From contig FJUW01000049.1 of the NCBI GenBank assembly GCA_900074885.1, forward strand, positions 55,748-119,747: 64,000 bases of DNA, in the 5' to 3' direction. Shown here piece after piece: positions 52,335 to 60,492 of this stretch. Numbering within the stretch: position 1 is the first letter of the stretch; each line of letters starts with the position of its first letter. The translations under genes and the position numbers were made by a program. The notes beneath the pieces are model-generated. The model was not told the origin of the DNA and searched no databases. It was given only the letters and a program-made list of their open reading frames with translations. This stretch comes from Rhynchosporium graminicola (Eukaryota; Ascomycota; Leotiomycetes; Helotiales; Ploettnerulaceae).

Positions 52335-54061
52335 ATGGGAGCTCCAAGTGAAATAGACGTCGAAAGTACGGTACGAGATGTCGCTGATGAAAAATCGACG
52401 GACCTCACCTCGGTCCAGGCCAGGCAGGCTACAGAGGTCGAGCATCAGATGGGCTTTTTTGAAGCAACAAAATTATACCCTGGTGCTGTCGGATGGTCTA
52501 TATTCTTCTCCTTGGGAATAATTATGACAGCGTTTGATCCACAATTACTGGGCGGAATGTACGCCACGCCTTCATTTCAGAAGGATTTTGGGTATTTGTT
52601 CGAGGGAGAATACATCATTAGCGCACCATGGCAGACTGGTCTCGGAATGGGCAATCCCATCGGCCAGTGCGTAGGCGCTTTGGGAGCTGCATATCCGATG
52701 GAATGGTTGGGAAGGAAGAAGGTAAGCTTCCATTATTGTGTTGGTTTTACGAGATTCTGATAGAAAGCAGACCTTTGGCGCTTGTGTCATTCTGACCGCG
52801 GGATGTGTTTTCATCCAATTTTTCGCCAGGTCTCTGAAGGTCCTGCTCATAGGAGAACTTCTCGGCGGTCTCATCCTCGGAACCTATGCTACGATTGCTC
52901 CTGCATATGCCTCCGAAGTCTGTCCTATCGCTCTCCGTGGTGTTCTCACAGCCTTCATTAATCTTTGCTTTGTGATCGGTCAACTACTCGCCAACGGCGT
53001 GATTGCCGGGACTTCTCAACTCGATACCCACTGGGCGTATTCTGCCCCATTTGCTACACAGTGGCTCTGGCCGATTATTATCTTGATCGCTTTGCCCTTT
53101 GCTCCAGAGTCTCCTTGGTGGCTCGTCCGAAAAGGCCGACTTGAGGATGCTGAGAAGTCTTTACGAAAACTCGCTTCCAAGGGACTGGACATGAAGCCGA
53201 CTCTGGCCATGATCGTCGAGACTGACAGATTTGAGATGGAGATGCAGACTGGAACGACGTATGCAGATTGTTTCAAGCAGATCAATTGGAGACGGACGGA
53301 AATATCGATTGGTGTCTACACAATTCAAGTTTTCAGCGGAATTTACTTAGTTGGCTATGCCACGTATTTCTTCCAGCGTAAGTCTTCTCCTGCACACTTC
53401 ATGATGTTGTAGTGTCATCAAATTAACAATTCTCAGTCGCTGGTCTTCCGGGCAGTAAAGCCTTCGAAATGAGTGTTGGATTCCTGGCTGTCGGTTTCTG
53501 TGGCACAGTTGGGTCCTGGTTCCTTATGAACAAGGTTGGTCGTCGACGCATCTATTGCTGTGGTTTAGCCACGCTCACTGGCTTGATGTTCCTCATTGGC
53601 ATTCTTGACTGTGCGCCAAATTACGAAAACCGTCTTGGTGTCATCTGGGCGCAGTCCACTATCATGGTAATCTGGAATGGCATTTATGGTCTGACGATCG
53701 GCCCGGTCTGTTTCGTTATCATCTGCGAAGTTTCAGCGACGAAAGTGAGAGCGAGAACAATTGCTATTGCGACCGCTGTCCAAGCTGTTTGCGGGATCGT
53801 AATGACTGTTGCCATTCCTTACATGATCAATCCTGATCAAGCGAACATTCGTGGAAAGCTTGGCTTTTTTTTCGGTAGGCAGATCTATTTACCAAAACTG
53901 CCATTTTTTACTAACAAATCTCAACAGGTGGTCTTTCGATTGTATCGTTTGCCTGGGCTTGGTTCCGTGTCCCCGAAACAATGGGCCGTACTTATGAGGA
54001 GCTGGATGTGATGTTTGAGAAGAAGCTCAAAACCAGAGGGTTCAAGAACTATAAGGTGTGA
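52335..54061 (+). CDS. MFS sugar transporter (hexose/alpha-glucoside type), 521 aa
   Basis: Predicted exons 52335-52721, 52771-53377, 53437-53874 and 53928-54061, with classical GT-AG introns of 49, 59 and 53 bp. It is a plasma-membrane sugar:H+ symporter of the major facilitator superfamily with about twelve membrane segments. Visible family motifs are the long cytoplasmic N-terminus, EWLGRKK after helix 2-3, PESPWWLVRKGR at the end of the sixth helix (usual PESPRWL), NKVGRRR in the second half, and VPETMGRTYEELD at the C-terminus (usual PETKGRTYEELD). The wording FDPQLLGGMYATPSFQKDFG near residues 67-85 is typical of the maltose/alpha-glucoside branch. The specific sugar cannot be told from sequence. 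Confidence 0.92.
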
Positions 54062-54291: not shown

Positions 54292-55263
54292 TCATTGTGA
54301 TGGGTTGAAGTTCCGCCAAAAAGTCCACCAGCTACCTTTCCCGTACTTCGGTTTGCATCCCCTGTTGGACCAGCTGTTCATTTCACATGCAATGACTGTG
54401 CCAGTGTAATCCTGATCGCGGCGACTCTCATCCCCACTGTTGCAACTGCTATTCATTACACCGTCCAGCTCGAGAACCGGATCGAGTTCGATCTGTTGTT
54501 CCAACCCACCCTTGTTGTCTTTATGTCCATACAGTGCGTACAATGCGTTCGGATATTTGGTGCGCTGATAACCGCTCGCGAACCCCTCCGCGATGCAACC
54601 CTGCCACAGAGCTAGGCACATATCTTCAACACCAAAATCCAGAGTTAGAGCATCGCATCGATCGCAATTGCACAGTTTGAGCCCTGCAGTCCCATACCTC
54701 CGTAGTATACAGAAGCAGGTACCCTGCGTCGCAATTTTTGATGCCCATTTTGTGCGTTGGATTTGGAAAAGGCGCCTCAAGCTGATCGTACTATCGAAAC
54801 CCTTGCCCGCCTGAGCACAAAGTTTCGTCACGTCCGAATACTTCGGTATTGCTCCTTCGCGGAAACACCATTTCTTGTGATTTCCGTCCGAGGTGGGCAG
54901 TATTTGAGACCGGTAAGGCAATTCCCTATTATTGCAAGCATATCGGGCTTTCTGCATTGCATCGTTGTTTTTAGGAGAAGATCTGGCGCCAAGAGAATGG
55001 ATGATTTCGTCGGAGGAAGTGGAATTCGTTTGAAAATCAGATACAGGACATGATTCGTTGAGGGCTGGCTGATTACTGATATCGCTCGGGGCTTCGAAGC
55101 GTTCGATACAGCTGATGGCTTGGAGACCAGTGCTATTACTTTCCCATTTGACCTCGTCGCAAAAACTGACCGGGAAGACATCTTCATTTTCTTCTTGGTG
55201 GACGAGCAAGCCAGAAACCGATCTGAGAAGCATGAGGCTTACGCCAAAAATTAGGAAACGCAT
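54292..55263 (-). CDS. Secreted cysteine-rich protein, 323 aa, paralogue of the gene at 56726
   Basis: A single exon. Residues 1 to about 18 form a signal peptide (FLIFGVSLMLLRSVSG). It has sixteen cysteines: 35, 52, 72, 110, 133, 149, 183, 185, 198, 200, 203, 216, 223, 274, 293 and 303. The densest part is CFC ... CNCDRCDAL ... DMCLAL (183-219). Other fixed pieces are ELPYRSQI (114-121), KKWCFREG (130-137), IELDPVLE (258-265) and SGDESRRDQDYTG (276-288). The mature protein is soluble with no GPI-like tail. The divergent neighbour at 56726-57895 has the same cysteines in the same order, so both descend from one gene. I do not recognise a named domain. A secreted effector or structural role is inference. 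Confidence 0.8.
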   Translation of the reverse strand: MRFLIFGVSLMLLRSVSGLLVHQEENEDVFPVSFCDEVKWESNSTGLQAISCIERFEAPSDISNQPALNESCPVSDFQTNSTSSDEIIHSLGARSSPKNNDAMQKARYACNNRELPYRSQILPTSDGNHKKWCFREGAIPKYSDVTKLCAQAGKGFDSTISLRRLFQIQRTKWASKIATQGTCFCILRRYGTAGLKLCNCDRCDALTLDFGVEDMCLALWQGCIAEGFASGYQRTKYPNALYALYGHKDNKGGLEQQIELDPVLELDGVMNSSCNSGDESRRDQDYTGTVIACEMNSWSNRGCKPKYGKGSWWTFWRNFNPSQ

Positions 55264-56725
55264 ATCTGTGCCTTCGGGAAAAAGGAGGTGGAATTGGTGA
55301 TGCTCAAGGCTTCTGGTTGGATGTATGCTTGCAAGGCGTCCCTGCAGAGGTCAAAAGGGTCAGTGAGGAGAAATGAAATATCTGTCTGAAAAAAAATTCG
55401 AATTGATCGAAGTGAATTGGCAACTACTCGGTTGTGAACTGACACCTAGACTAAATTAAGCGAGTCCGTTGATTTTAATATTTGGGGCCTGAGATCACTT
55501 GCGCTTGAGTGGCTTTACCGAGGTTATACCTGCTGCCGGTTCATCTTCAGAGGGGTCTAGAATTTGGGACTAATCTTACGACTATGGTCACACTAGACGA
55601 AGGCTCGAAAGATAGGTGCTAAAACCACACAGCCCTTCGGAGTGAAGGTCGTATTGTGGCACAGCTATGCACTAGATTCCGATATTTCTTTTGCCCTATA
55701 GTTCTAGGAGACGAAAATGATTTCAGCAATCATAGTGAACATGATTTGACTTCTTTATAGCTATCTTTGATGCACAGAAGGTTGACTTATCCTCATCCTA
55801 AGCTTTGCTGATGGCAGAACACATGTAATATTTTATGACCTGTGTCCCGCATCCCGGAATCTCAAATGTCTTTGAGCGGTTGCTATATCAGCTGCCAGTA
55901 ATGCCTTGCTAGTGTCGAACCAACAGGAGTGATAAAGACTCGGTACTGTCAGATGGCGATCATAGCCTTGTGTTTGTGGTTACCTTGTCGACGGATGGTA
56001 CAAAGCTAGGAATAACCGAAGAAGACGAACCATCGAGAAATAAAATGAAACCGTTGGTCAAGTATTAGAGAATGATCGAGGGAACGGATGGTGCCGGGTA
56101 AAGACTCGATTTAATTTTAAGCCAAAGATGAACCTATCGGCGACGAGGTAATCGCTACCTGTATGGAGCTTGGTAATGCCGGTGGACATGAATATGATTC
56201 GAAGGATGGTTACAGGTGTTTATGATTTGGTCTTGTATTGAGATCAAAATTATCGTTGAGTATCGTCTGAGCCGAAAATTGACGCATTCGAGGTCAATCG
56301 ACAAAAGTCATATTGCAAAAATTCCAACAGGATGATAATACCGCATAGGCTGATGCTAAATTCTGCGGTCCTAGACTTCGACCCAGGTAAGAAAAGAATT
56401 ATTGTCCGTCGGATTAGGCGAGACACTACTCCGAGTCCATATTCTCCACTTAGTCTGGCACCTCACTAAATATTCCAATATTTCAATATTCCCTTAGATC
56501 AAGCCCTCAGCCTCAGGGCTATAAGTACCACTCTGATTCTCATTGTCTCACCCACAATCCATCGCTAATCATATTCTTAAAATCGAAAAATCCTCACTGT
56601 CCTCACACCACCCAAATCCCCGAAGCATTCTTAAGCTACACTCAATATCACAGCTCAATAGCACATCACCACTCAGTCAATATCCAAGACGCCTAGGAAA
56701 TAAGTAGCCTACTTCCACGATCAAG
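55264..56725. other. Bidirectional upstream region of the secreted paralogue pair
   Basis: About 1.46 kb between two divergent genes, with no supported frame. The right end (about 56480-56720) is pyrimidine- and CA-rich like a fungal promoter-leader, and includes a run resembling ATATTCCAATATTTC near 56468-56490. No transposon ends seen. Confidence 0.5.
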
Positions 56726-57895
56726 ATGCAGATCTCAATTCAAGCTCTCAGCAAGCTGCTGGTGTTCCTTCTAACACAGCCCGCCTTTGGAGCGCTCATT
56801 CCAAAACCGGTCACTCATCCAGCATGCACCGACCTCACTTGGGATGAGAATGATAGCGGTTTCCAAGCGAGAATCTGTACCATGCCTCGCCCGTCCAGCT
56901 TCAGAGGAGCAACTCAATCGTCCCTTGCCAAGCGTACCAACGAGGAGCTCGACAACAAGTTCGCATCCATCCTCTCTGCTCTTACACCGAATGCAACGGA
57001 GTCAAGTTTGGACATTTGTCTACCAGCATCAAATACCCCCATCGCCTCTGAGAATAACGAAGATGGTGCGCAACAAGTTGACGAAGAATCCGAACACAAC
57101 GACTCCGACACCAACATTGAACGCCGCAACACTTGTGCTGGCGGTGCCACGCCTTCGAGGCTCCCCTACCGTACACCGCTCATCGAAATCGAGGCAACGG
57201 CCTCCAAGAGCTGGTGTTTTCGTCCCGGTCCCTCACCAAACAAAGACCATATCGACAGCCTCTGTCGCAGTATCTCACAGCTCCACTATCCAGGTGGAAG
57301 AACCAGACCCAACATACCTTTCCAAGACGACTTCATAGTTCAGCGCGCTCGCGGCCCTGCTATATCCGGAAACACCACCGTCGAGAATGGAGGTAGTTGT
57401 GTCTGCGTCGCTGGACGGGAACGTACTGCTGGTTTCAAGGTCTGCAATTGTGATCGTTGCGATTCGCTGGTCATCAACCATGGACTGGGAGACATGTGCA
57501 AATCGCTTCAAAACCAGTGTACCGGAAAAGGATTCAGCAGTGGATATATCAAGTCTGCCTTCAAAGGTGCGATGAGCAACAGTATCATTTCGCTGTTCAC
57601 GTTTCCCGACACCAAAGGTGGTAAGAATCAGCATGTGGAATTGGATCCCGTCCTAGCTGAGCCAGGGGCGGTAGTCAGCAGTTGCAGAAGTGGGGATGAG
57701 GGGCGCAAACGTCAAGATTATTCCGGTCCTGTGATAGACTGTAGAAGAGCCTTCATTCCAAAGTTTGCAATGGGAAGATACTGTAGGGACATGGCAGCTG
57801 GAGGTGCGAAAGTCTGGGTCAAAGACAAGGAGGATCCTTTTAAGGTCTTGAGGGGCAAGCCAAAGGGTGGCTTTAGTCAGTTCGGCGAGAAGTAG
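56726..57895 (+). CDS. Secreted cysteine-rich protein, 389 aa, paralogue of the gene at 54292
   Basis: A single exon with a signal peptide (about residues 1-22, LLVFLLTQPAFG). Its cysteines are at 34, 51, 98, 137, 164, 180, 225, 227, 240, 242, 245, 258, 265, 320, 339 and 353: sixteen, all alignable with those of the divergent neighbour. Spacings are identical between Cys1-2, Cys5-6, Cys7 through Cys13, and Cys14-15. Shared pieces are RLPYRTPL (145-152), KSWCFRPG (161-168), CNCDRCDSL (240-248), VELDPVL (304-310) and SGDEGRKRQDYSG (322-334). It has an extra acidic region (about 108-130), possible Kex2-type sites after LAKR (67-70) and ERR (132-134), and a basic C-terminal tail (about 360-389) lacking in the paralogue. 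Function unknown; secretion is well supported by sequence. Confidence 0.82.
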   Translation: MQISIQALSKLLVFLLTQPAFGALIPKPVTHPACTDLTWDENDSGFQARICTMPRPSSFRGATQSSLAKRTNEELDNKFASILSALTPNATESSLDICLPASNTPIASENNEDGAQQVDEESEHNDSDTNIERRNTCAGGATPSRLPYRTPLIEIEATASKSWCFRPGPSPNKDHIDSLCRSISQLHYPGGRTRPNIPFQDDFIVQRARGPAISGNTTVENGGSCVCVAGRERTAGFKVCNCDRCDSLVINHGLGDMCKSLQNQCTGKGFSSGYIKSAFKGAMSNSIISLFTFPDTKGGKNQHVELDPVLAEPGAVVSSCRSGDEGRKRQDYSGPVIDCRRAFIPKFAMGRYCRDMAAGGAKVWVKDKEDPFKVLRGKPKGGFSQFGEK

Positions 57896-58123: not shown

Positions 58124-60492
58124 TTATTGCGTGTTTGAACCACCTCCAGCCCAAGCATACCAAGGTAAATCCTGTAAATCTCCCATCATCGCCATCTCAT
58201 CATAGGTGCCTGGCCCTCGATCTCCTTCAACTCCACCGAATTCAAACATCATTTCATCACTAAATTCAATTGACGATACAGCCGCCCCACCAGCATCACC
58301 TGGCATGCTACTTCCACCTAAATCGTAGGTCTTGGCCAAAAGCTCACTGCCATTTGCCAATCCCTGGCTCGTTTCATCCATCATGTTCATTCTCAATTGT
58401 TCAAGAATCTTCCACATCTTTGTCGTTGCTACGGGCGAGTCCTTGAAGCGCTTGAAAACAGCCTCGACTTGCCGCTGAGCACGATCCTTGTCACTTTGTC
58501 TTGTCGCATGCCGACTATCAATGAGTGCTATGGCTGACGCGAGCCAAGGGACAGAGGTGCTAAAGATGAACTCCCAATTCATGACGGAGAAGATAGTTAT
58601 GTGATACATTATCGCTTCGAGCAGTTGGATGGCTGATAAGAAGACTCTGGTAGGTTGTTAGTGTAGTCAAACTTTATACTAGAGCAATAGGGAACATACT
58701 GTTGTCTATATGGATCTGAGGGATTTGCTTTCAATTTTTCTATCTGGCGATGCCGAAGTGATAGCCTGAGTGTCGATATCCTCACTTCTACAAATGCTGT
58801 AATCACTGTTTGAGATGGATTTGTTCTGTCTATTCCGGCCAAATATTTTTGACTGATTACTGTCTCGCACTCGTTGATAATTCTTTGCCTCTCGTCGAAG
58901 TTGTTTCCGTCGATTGCAGCTAGACGACGAATAGTGTCCGATATCTCACGATGGACAAGAGCGAAACTTGTATCTTTGAAACCCAGTAGGTTGGCAGGAA
59001 CAGATGACGGGTTGGCGAATCGACTTGCATGCCACCTGCATAATTTTGATTAGCAAAAATATATTCAAGTATGTTTCGGGAATGTGAAAGATGCCCCGAC
59101 TGAGTCACGAGACATGGAAAGCGCAGGTCAATGATATAGGTTTTTTTCATCTATACTCACTCGCGGTCATCTGCATTCTTTGGTGGTAGAGCATCTGATG
59201 TTGGTGGCAAGCAAGACTCAGCACCGAAGACGCTTGTGGCCTGTGCATCGAGATTACAGATGTGATTCCATATCCTGGCACGAATCTCGGTCACCCAGGG
59301 CGAATAAGGAAAATGCCTCGAATCCCGATGGATACCCATATTTTGGGCGATACGAACAGCTACCGCTAAAAGTGGGATTCCGTCCTTGTAAAGGTTTTGC
59401 TGGAATACGAAGGTCTCAAAAGCTGTCAGCTGATCATTCATAGCCCAGGGGGATGGTCATACTACAGTACCAGATAATGAAGTAACGCTCCAAGACCATG
59501 TACTTTCTCGGTTTTGTAAAAGTTGATTCTTGTGAGAGCAACTTGAGTTGACAGCTGCAGTCGAGAAAGTGTCTCGTCTTTGGATGTTGAGAAGATTCCT
59601 TGCACTATCTCTGGTCGCAAACTGTTTACTGTTAGAGTGTAGATGGCGAAAAGCAGGGCTTCAAATTCGCGTGGCAGATGAAATGTACCTCGCCGATACA
59701 TACTCAACTCTCTGGCAAAGAGCGACGAATGGATAGCTCGGATAAATGGATTCACACTTTCGAAGAAATACTTGCAAAGCATCTTGCTCTCGTGAAGTGT
59801 CGGGTGTGCCAAGCCGAACTCTGTAGCTGAGAACTGATACGGCATTCCCAGTACAGACATGGAAGTCCACCGAGAGCTATCATTGTTTACATTGCCACAA
59901 GCCGGATCGTCGAAAAGGCTTCTCAAATCCTCAACCTAATTATATATCAGTCAATTTGGTTATGCATATAAGGAGAAGACGTGAATACTTCTGTGAGAAA
60001 AGCAGGCCAGAATTCTGCATTGAAATACGCACTGTAGCCGTCTTGGAATACAATTTGGCCAACCGGAGCATTAGCCAAGGCACGATTGTCGAATGCGCTA
60101 CTCGTAGGCAAATGGGAGGATGTACTGGTCTGATGTGGTTGATTTGAAGGAGTCGCAGTTGGCGCGGTGGAGCTATTCTCTAGCGACGCGCTGGTAATTT
60201 CCGAGCTACCGGGTTCAAATGTCGATTTTCCAACCATCATCGACTCCATCAATCTCTCCAACCTCACCAGCCTCCCCCTCAGCTCCGTATCGGTCGAGTT
60301 TGCTACATTGCTTACCTCTCGAGATGTGCCGATGCTATTGTCAGTGATCTCGTAGGTGCACAGTTGCTTGGTGCGCAAACAACGCGAGCATGGACGGATC
60401 TTGTCACAGCGAACCTTTTTTAAGCGGCAGCTGTGACAAGGCCGGCCGTGCGAAGCTGCGATTTCCTCGCCGCCTCCTTCTTGAGATTCCAT
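58124..60492 (-). CDS. Zn(II)2Cys6 transcription factor with fungal-specific regulatory domain, 698 aa
   Basis: Predicted minus-strand exons 60492-59989, 59935-59471, 59429-59161, 59035-58700 and 58646-58124, all in frame. The cluster is Cys19, 22, 29, 35, 38, 45 (Cx2Cx6Cx5Cx2Cx6C), followed by a leucine-rich linker (LRGRLVRLERLMESMM) that could be a dimerising coiled coil. The middle region (about 170-460) contains HPTLHESKMLCKYFFESVNPFIRAIH, AVRIAQNMGIHRDS and RARIWNHICNLDA-like pieces, the usual fungal_trans domain. The C-terminus is acidic and Gly/Met-rich. The third exon begins after a 41-bp intron (59430-59470), the shortest here and the least certain junction. The gene lies between the secreted pair and the reductase pair and could regulate either; that is inference. 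Confidence 0.88.

Follow-up and report, generated by a model that had tools for sequence, protein, structure and literature searches.

In proteins of the KP4-like fold group, two helices pack against an antiparallel sheet that has four to six strands, according to the available part of PMC13211469, and the structural relatives that concern us here are described, in the accessible portions of the literature, as antifungal (Zt-KP4, UmKP4, Gnk2) or glycan-binding (Y3, LDL). The Zt-KP4-1 structure 8ACX is also named as an Hce2-domain protein in the accessible text of PMC11952758, and KR, RR and LxxR are the motif classes used for Kex2-processed effectors in the available sections of PMC8528282. 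We analysed a 64,000-nucleotide window of the Rhynchosporium graminicola genome (contig FJUW01000049.1, positions 55748-119747; the genome searched comprised 55.3 Mb in 121 contigs), which contains a divergent pair of genes, P0001 and P0002. Their products appear to represent a new branch within a known type of protein, not a type that is wholly new: cysteine-rich proteins with the layout of proproteins, built around a core that probably has a KP4-like fold.

P0001 (54292-55263, minus strand; 323 amino acids) and P0002 (56726-57895, plus strand; 389 amino acids) are single-frame open reading frames (ORFs) with 1462 bp (55264-56725) between their start codons, the head-to-head arrangement over 1.46 kb that an earlier note on this DNA had described. 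That the genes are single-exon, as also claimed there, is consistent with the alignment of relatives across most or all of each ORF. BLASTP aligned the two proteins with 28% identity (E 4e-46). A global alignment in which cysteines were scored neutrally gave a score of 237.5, against a maximum of 10 among 300 shuffles, and placed 11 cysteines in register, compared with no more than four in the shuffles; with normal scoring the same method placed 14 of the 16 in register. These results exclude chance and demonstrate, at the level of the sequences, that the proteins are diverged paralogues on a common cysteine frame. Exactly 16 cysteines were counted in each (4.1-5.0% of residues, a cysteine-rich composition), and all 16 cysteine columns of a 19-row family alignment are cysteine in both. 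The nine spacings named in the earlier note (17, 16, 2, 13, 2, 3, 13, 7 and 19) were recovered identically in both translations, as were the common words CNCDRCD, ELDPVL and SGDE...QDY.G.

The first two cysteines enclose a loop at residues 35-52 of P0001 (55108-55161, minus strand) and 34-51 of P0002 (56825-56878, plus strand), with a spacing of 17 in both paralogues; the family alignment places the two loops together, and both cysteines are kept in a third paralogue described below. Some cysteines are lost in pairs. C3 and C4 are jointly absent from the five rows of subfamily C, defined below, which counts as one event, and C6 and C12 are jointly absent from P0014. These co-losses offer suggestions only of C3-C4 and C6-C12 disulfides, and P0013 fits them poorly: it lacks C4 while keeping C3 plus an extra cysteine two residues on, and a gap of 13 residues, perhaps an error in the gene model, removes C12-C13.

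The best 15-residue hydropathy means were 1.89 and 2.05 at the N-termini of the two proteins, and past residue 30 they fell to 1.24 and 0.94. The putative signal peptides cover residues ~1-18 of P0001 (55210-55263, minus strand; hydropathy maximum at residues 3-17) and ~1-22 of P0002 (56726-56791, plus strand; hydropathy, with a helix at residues 5-17 of the model). The signal peptides proposed earlier thus have the support of an N-terminal hydrophobic stretch, and both products are probably secreted.

Beyond this stretch the family looks, from sequence, like a set of proproteins. The tree described below divides it into subfamilies A (P0002 type), B (P0001 type) and C. The first dibasic site of P0002, KR at residues 69-70 (56930-56935, plus strand), corresponds to KR or RR in nine of the ten subfamily A proteins; the tenth, P0010, is without that N-terminal part. 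The main Kex2-type site, IERR, ends in R133-R134 (57122-57127, plus strand) just before C4 (C137). A hydrophobic-x-Arg-Arg motif was found at the same place in all ten subfamily A and all five subfamily C proteins (15/15), slightly off the common column of the MAFFT alignment in P0018, and this conservation supports Kex2 maturation in both subfamilies. An automated count gave 14 of 19: its 30-residue limit hid the site of P0010, which has only 32 residues before it and was found by separate inspection, and the other four proteins are those of subfamily B. For P0001 the candidate is a weak Kex2-type LxxR site, LGAR at residues 91-94 (54982-54993, minus strand). All four subfamily B proteins contain [LI]xxR, for which the chance of any match is 0.25-0.64 per sequence. 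Most rows of A and B also keep an LPYR before C5, which conforms to LxxR but was not taken as a cut site. The 16-cysteine frame, then, is common to both proteins as the earlier note had it, but it is probably not one mature unit, since P0002 has a Kex2-type site between C3 and C4, with one at the corresponding place in each of the nine other subfamily A proteins.

In all 19 proteins the net charge switched from negative ahead of the site to positive behind it, the boundary in subfamily B being an aligned column and not a known cut. The charge before the site is merely -1 in P0008, P0010 and P0014. A disorder-prone composition was found in the segment before the site in P0001, P0002 and P0015, the three proteins for which it was computed. 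One further member, P0011, is a fragment that lacks C11 onward.

AlphaFold2 models of P0001 and P0002 had the same top three structural matches, Zt-KP4, the Y3 lectin and the LDL lectin, with plant DUF26 next. The Zt-KP4 match extended over 97-98 aligned residues at 2.8 Å with 9-16% identity. The P0001 model contains strands at residues 129-134, 164-167, 183-190, 193-199, 205-208, 230-235 and 240-246, and helices at 142-156 and 212-222. This order, taken from the list of elements and not from coordinates, fits the KP4-like definition, yet seven strands are listed. Block means of the predicted local distance difference test (pLDDT) were 62-91 from residue 121 to 250, except for 40-45 at 161-180. 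The predicted core lies at residues ~124-256 of P0001 (54496-54894, minus strand) and 158-293 of P0002 (57197-57604, plus strand), with C5-C13 inside, and on these models a KP4-like fold of C5-C13 is probable. The C-terminal tail that follows contains C14-C16. In P0001 (54295-54495, minus strand) it includes ELDPVL...SGDE...QDYTG and mostly has pLDDT below 50; in P0002 (57605-57892, plus strand) it is 58-69% identical in four cross-genus comparisons.

Neither P0001 nor P0002 matched any Pfam family at E<=10, and a PDB profile search gave no match at E<=10. The earlier note knew of no named domain for the core, and by sequence this holds, but the models suggest that the core has a known fold. 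The Pfam scan took in 10 of the 19 family proteins, and HMMER filters drop most matches above E ~0.1; within these limits none of the ten matched Kp4 (PF09044) or Hce2 (PF14856) at E<=10, or DUF26 (PF01657). The Kp4 model had no match in the genome and none in the control genomes either. A viral structure library gave no match at E<=0.001, and no KP4 protein was among the 50 matches listed.

A single Hce2 match was found in the genome, on a different contig (G000:C81:348509-348826, L010; 26.5 bits against a cut-off of 25), and this protein matched no KP4 structure by sequence either. A direct sequence link to Hce2 was rejected after hhalign of the family profile (A4) against it aligned 8 columns with a probability of 0.3, although a single-sequence partner makes this weak evidence. 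The public Cyanovirin-N label (UniRef) on P0012, P0016 and P0017 looks wrong, as all three had 0 Pfam families at E<=10, and the public 'CxC6' label was rejected because P0004 had no Pfam match. The one Pfam match of the ten-protein scan, to PF22442 (pectate-lyase-like) in P0015, was below threshold (E 0.049; 13.3 bits, cut-off 27), fell mostly in the linker and was taken as chance.

The third paralogue, P0015 (331 amino acids, 14 cysteines), is unlinked to the pair (contig C75:728510-729502; L003:1063-2058) and shares 98% identity with Rhynchosporium secalis RSE6_10146. Next to the P0015 gene, on the opposite strand, is part of a carboxylesterase gene (PF00135). Searches of the genome with P0015, P0001 and a 331-residue piece of P0002 found at least three copies. 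Protein searches gave 10 matches for P0002 and 4 for P0001, queries included, and 5 for a six-row profile. The named relatives all belong to the Helotiales (Leptodontidium, Oculimacula, Rhexocercosporidium, Cadophora and Rhynchosporium); the profile search returned P0014 and four new proteins and missed the members P0001 and P0002, so that recall was limited and a wider spread is possible. No description of the family was found in the literature on Rhynchosporium, Oculimacula, Ploettnerulaceae effectors or KP4, which was covered in part.

In a tree of 19 proteins three groups were resolved: A, with ten rows (P0002 and its relatives P0003-P0011; support 88/92, not starred), B, with four (P0001 and P0012-P0014; 100/98), and C, with the five of the P0015 type (100/100). 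P0014 and P0019 form long branches, whose joins may be false. Groups A and B each contain Oculimacula, Leptodontidium and Cadophora, the Cadophora row of B being the long-branch P0014, and the duplication that separated them is therefore probably older than the genera sampled. Close locus numbers were found for A and B members in O. yallundae (VTL71DRAFT_11173 and 11175) and C. gregata (ONS95_003585 and 003578). If these numbers reflect gene order, the linkage of A and B therefore looks old as well.

The reading that we favour, with about an even chance of being right, is that these are secreted, cationic, Kex2-matured, KP4-like proproteins that are likely to have antifungal or antimicrobial action or to bind glycans. 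An old, divergent duplicate pair would encode cysteine-rich proproteins that are exported via a signal peptide. Proteins of the P0002 type would be cut at Arg-Arg by a Kex2-type convertase, so that a basic mature part, made up of a KP4-like alpha/beta sandwich (C5-C13) and a family-specific three-cysteine tail, is separated from an acidic, largely disordered N-terminal segment that bears the small C1-C2 loop. Our inference is that, once mature, the protein works extracellularly at cell surfaces, with antifungal or antimicrobial killer activity a little likelier than glycan binding alone. The acidic pro-segment, on this view, would keep it quiet within the secretory pathway. Because the structural relatives are antifungal or glycan-binding, we rank antifungal or antimicrobial action first, a plant-directed effector second and binding to the fungus's own wall third. 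Several results weigh against the favoured reading. The structural matches are modest (Z 7.0-7.9), as is model confidence; Foldseek alone gave no significant structural match; and, for the P0001 type, a dibasic site matching the pattern precedes the core in none of the four subfamily B proteins.

Variation between genera bears on the second of these readings. In four cross-genus pairs of group A, the linker before Arg134 was 33-42% identical and the core 70-77%. Three such pairs of group B gave 18-47% for the linker and 51-69% for the core, with less contrast between the segments, and the single pair of group C gave 60% for the linker, with 22 gap columns, and 77% for the core. Between A and B (P0002 against P0001) the core is 35% identical. 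The P0001 subfamily thus changes faster than the P0002 subfamily. A fixed frame with fast-changing loops had been proposed earlier, and the fast pro-segment of A agrees with this, but the conserved core of A does not; most of the pattern comes from rapid change in the pro-segment and from the old divergence of the paralogues.

Plant-directed apoplastic effectors, secreted during leaf colonisation, acting on barley or grass immunity and diverging as paralogues under pressure from the host, would accord with the Rhynchosporium genome, the cysteine-rich composition and the faster change of subfamily B. Among the sources of relatives are the plant pathogens Oculimacula yallundae and Cadophora gregata. 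Kex2-processed effectors and Zt-KP4-like effectors are moreover known or proposed in plant pathogens, according to the accessible parts of PMC8528282 and PMC11952758 respectively. Against this, both subfamilies are older than the sampled genera in the tree, the conserved P0002-type core is shared with Leptodontidium and Rhexocercosporidium, and the family is not expanded, with three members in the genome as a lower bound. The Leptodontidium and Rhexocercosporidium isolates come from roots or are not known as leaf pathogens of grasses. With a duplication older than the genera sampled and a core so conserved in one subfamily, an effector shaped by an arms race with a specific host is not the simplest reading, and we consider a plant-directed role unlikely, if still worth serious weight. 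The secreted effector or host-facing family of the earlier note stands as to probable secretion; a host-specific effector role is possible but not indicated.

That the fold match is spurious and the core a new disulfide-rich fold is improbable, as the same coherent KP4-like group tops the match lists of both models, with a clear drop to unrelated rows after it. Lower again we place a self-directed role in glycan binding or in the cell wall, with lectin-like modules of the KP4 fold binding the fungus's own wall or matrix and acting in development or protection, to which the glycan-binding Y3 and LDL matches and the conservation across genera lend some plausibility, but which is rather doubtful given an acidic-pro/basic-mature split more typical of cationic antimicrobial proproteins. 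The fold and the Kex2 step of the favoured reading are also compatible with this last explanation and with the plant-directed one, so the likelihoods given do not sum to one. A more elaborate reading, which we regard as quite improbable, is a latent two-chain killer: a Kex2 cut between C3 and C4 in A and B would leave a C3-C4 disulfide tethering the acidic chain as an inhibitor of the basic KP4-like chain. The inhibitor would be freed by reduction of the bond or loss of the linker, subfamily C would be the untethered form, and the pair would be two such proteins under one control region.

The 1462-bp intergenic region common to both genes matched only its own place in a genome DNA search in which very common words were skipped, and a repeat or transposon was rejected. 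Scans of it with bacterial promoter and terminator models, which are not meaningful in a fungus, gave chance-level counts. Just downstream of the P0001 gene, and transcribed towards it, lies a sugar transporter (PF00083) in two exon pieces (52738-54011). Beyond the P0002 gene is an ORF with a Zn2Cys6 domain (PF00172; 59947-60489, minus strand); ORFs at 58124-58606 and 59462-59923, neither of which matched Pfam, may be parts of that gene.

If the core is KP4-like, the fold group gains a family from the Helotiales that went undetected by Pfam models in this analysis, and the pro-segment, with its conserved cut site, charge split and own cysteines, provides a testable idea of how self-harm from a KP4-like protein could be avoided. 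According to the available part of PMC5118889, a published R. commune effector screen took proteins of <=200 amino acids and one-species genes and reported no candidates in the 201-350 amino acid fraction. P0001 and P0002, with 323 and 389 amino acids and relatives in other species, fall outside it.

Compared with the KP4/Zt-KP4-1 family (Pfam Kp4; 8ACX), the proteins are likewise disulfide-rich, probably secreted and predicted to form an alpha/beta sandwich, but they are only 9-16% identical to it and without a Kp4 or Hce2 Pfam match. They add a Kex2-type pro-segment and a three-cysteine C-terminal tail, and their mature parts would be ~216 (P0001) and ~255 (P0002) amino acids long, as against 107-112 in the 8ACX chains. 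The lectins Y3 (Coprinus comatus) and LDL (Lyophyllum decastes), second and third among the structural matches of both models, differ in sequence (8-14% identity), and P0001 and P0002 have 12 cysteines in core and tail. The C-x8-C-x2-C motif that defines plant DUF26/Gnk2 is absent from the 15 family proteins examined, none of which has a cysteine spacing of 9 followed by 3. With Kex2-processed effectors of the K2PP type such as SnTox3, as described in the available part of PMC8528282, the proteins have in common a likely signal peptide, a disorder-prone N-terminal segment and a Kex2-type site in the first half; the K2PP motif is present throughout A and C, and in subfamily B in its expanded LxxR form only. 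Unlike those effectors, P0001 and P0002 carry a conserved C1-C2 loop of their own in the pro-segment, and in subfamilies A and B the pro-segment also contains C3, whose bond to C4 may persist across the putative cut.

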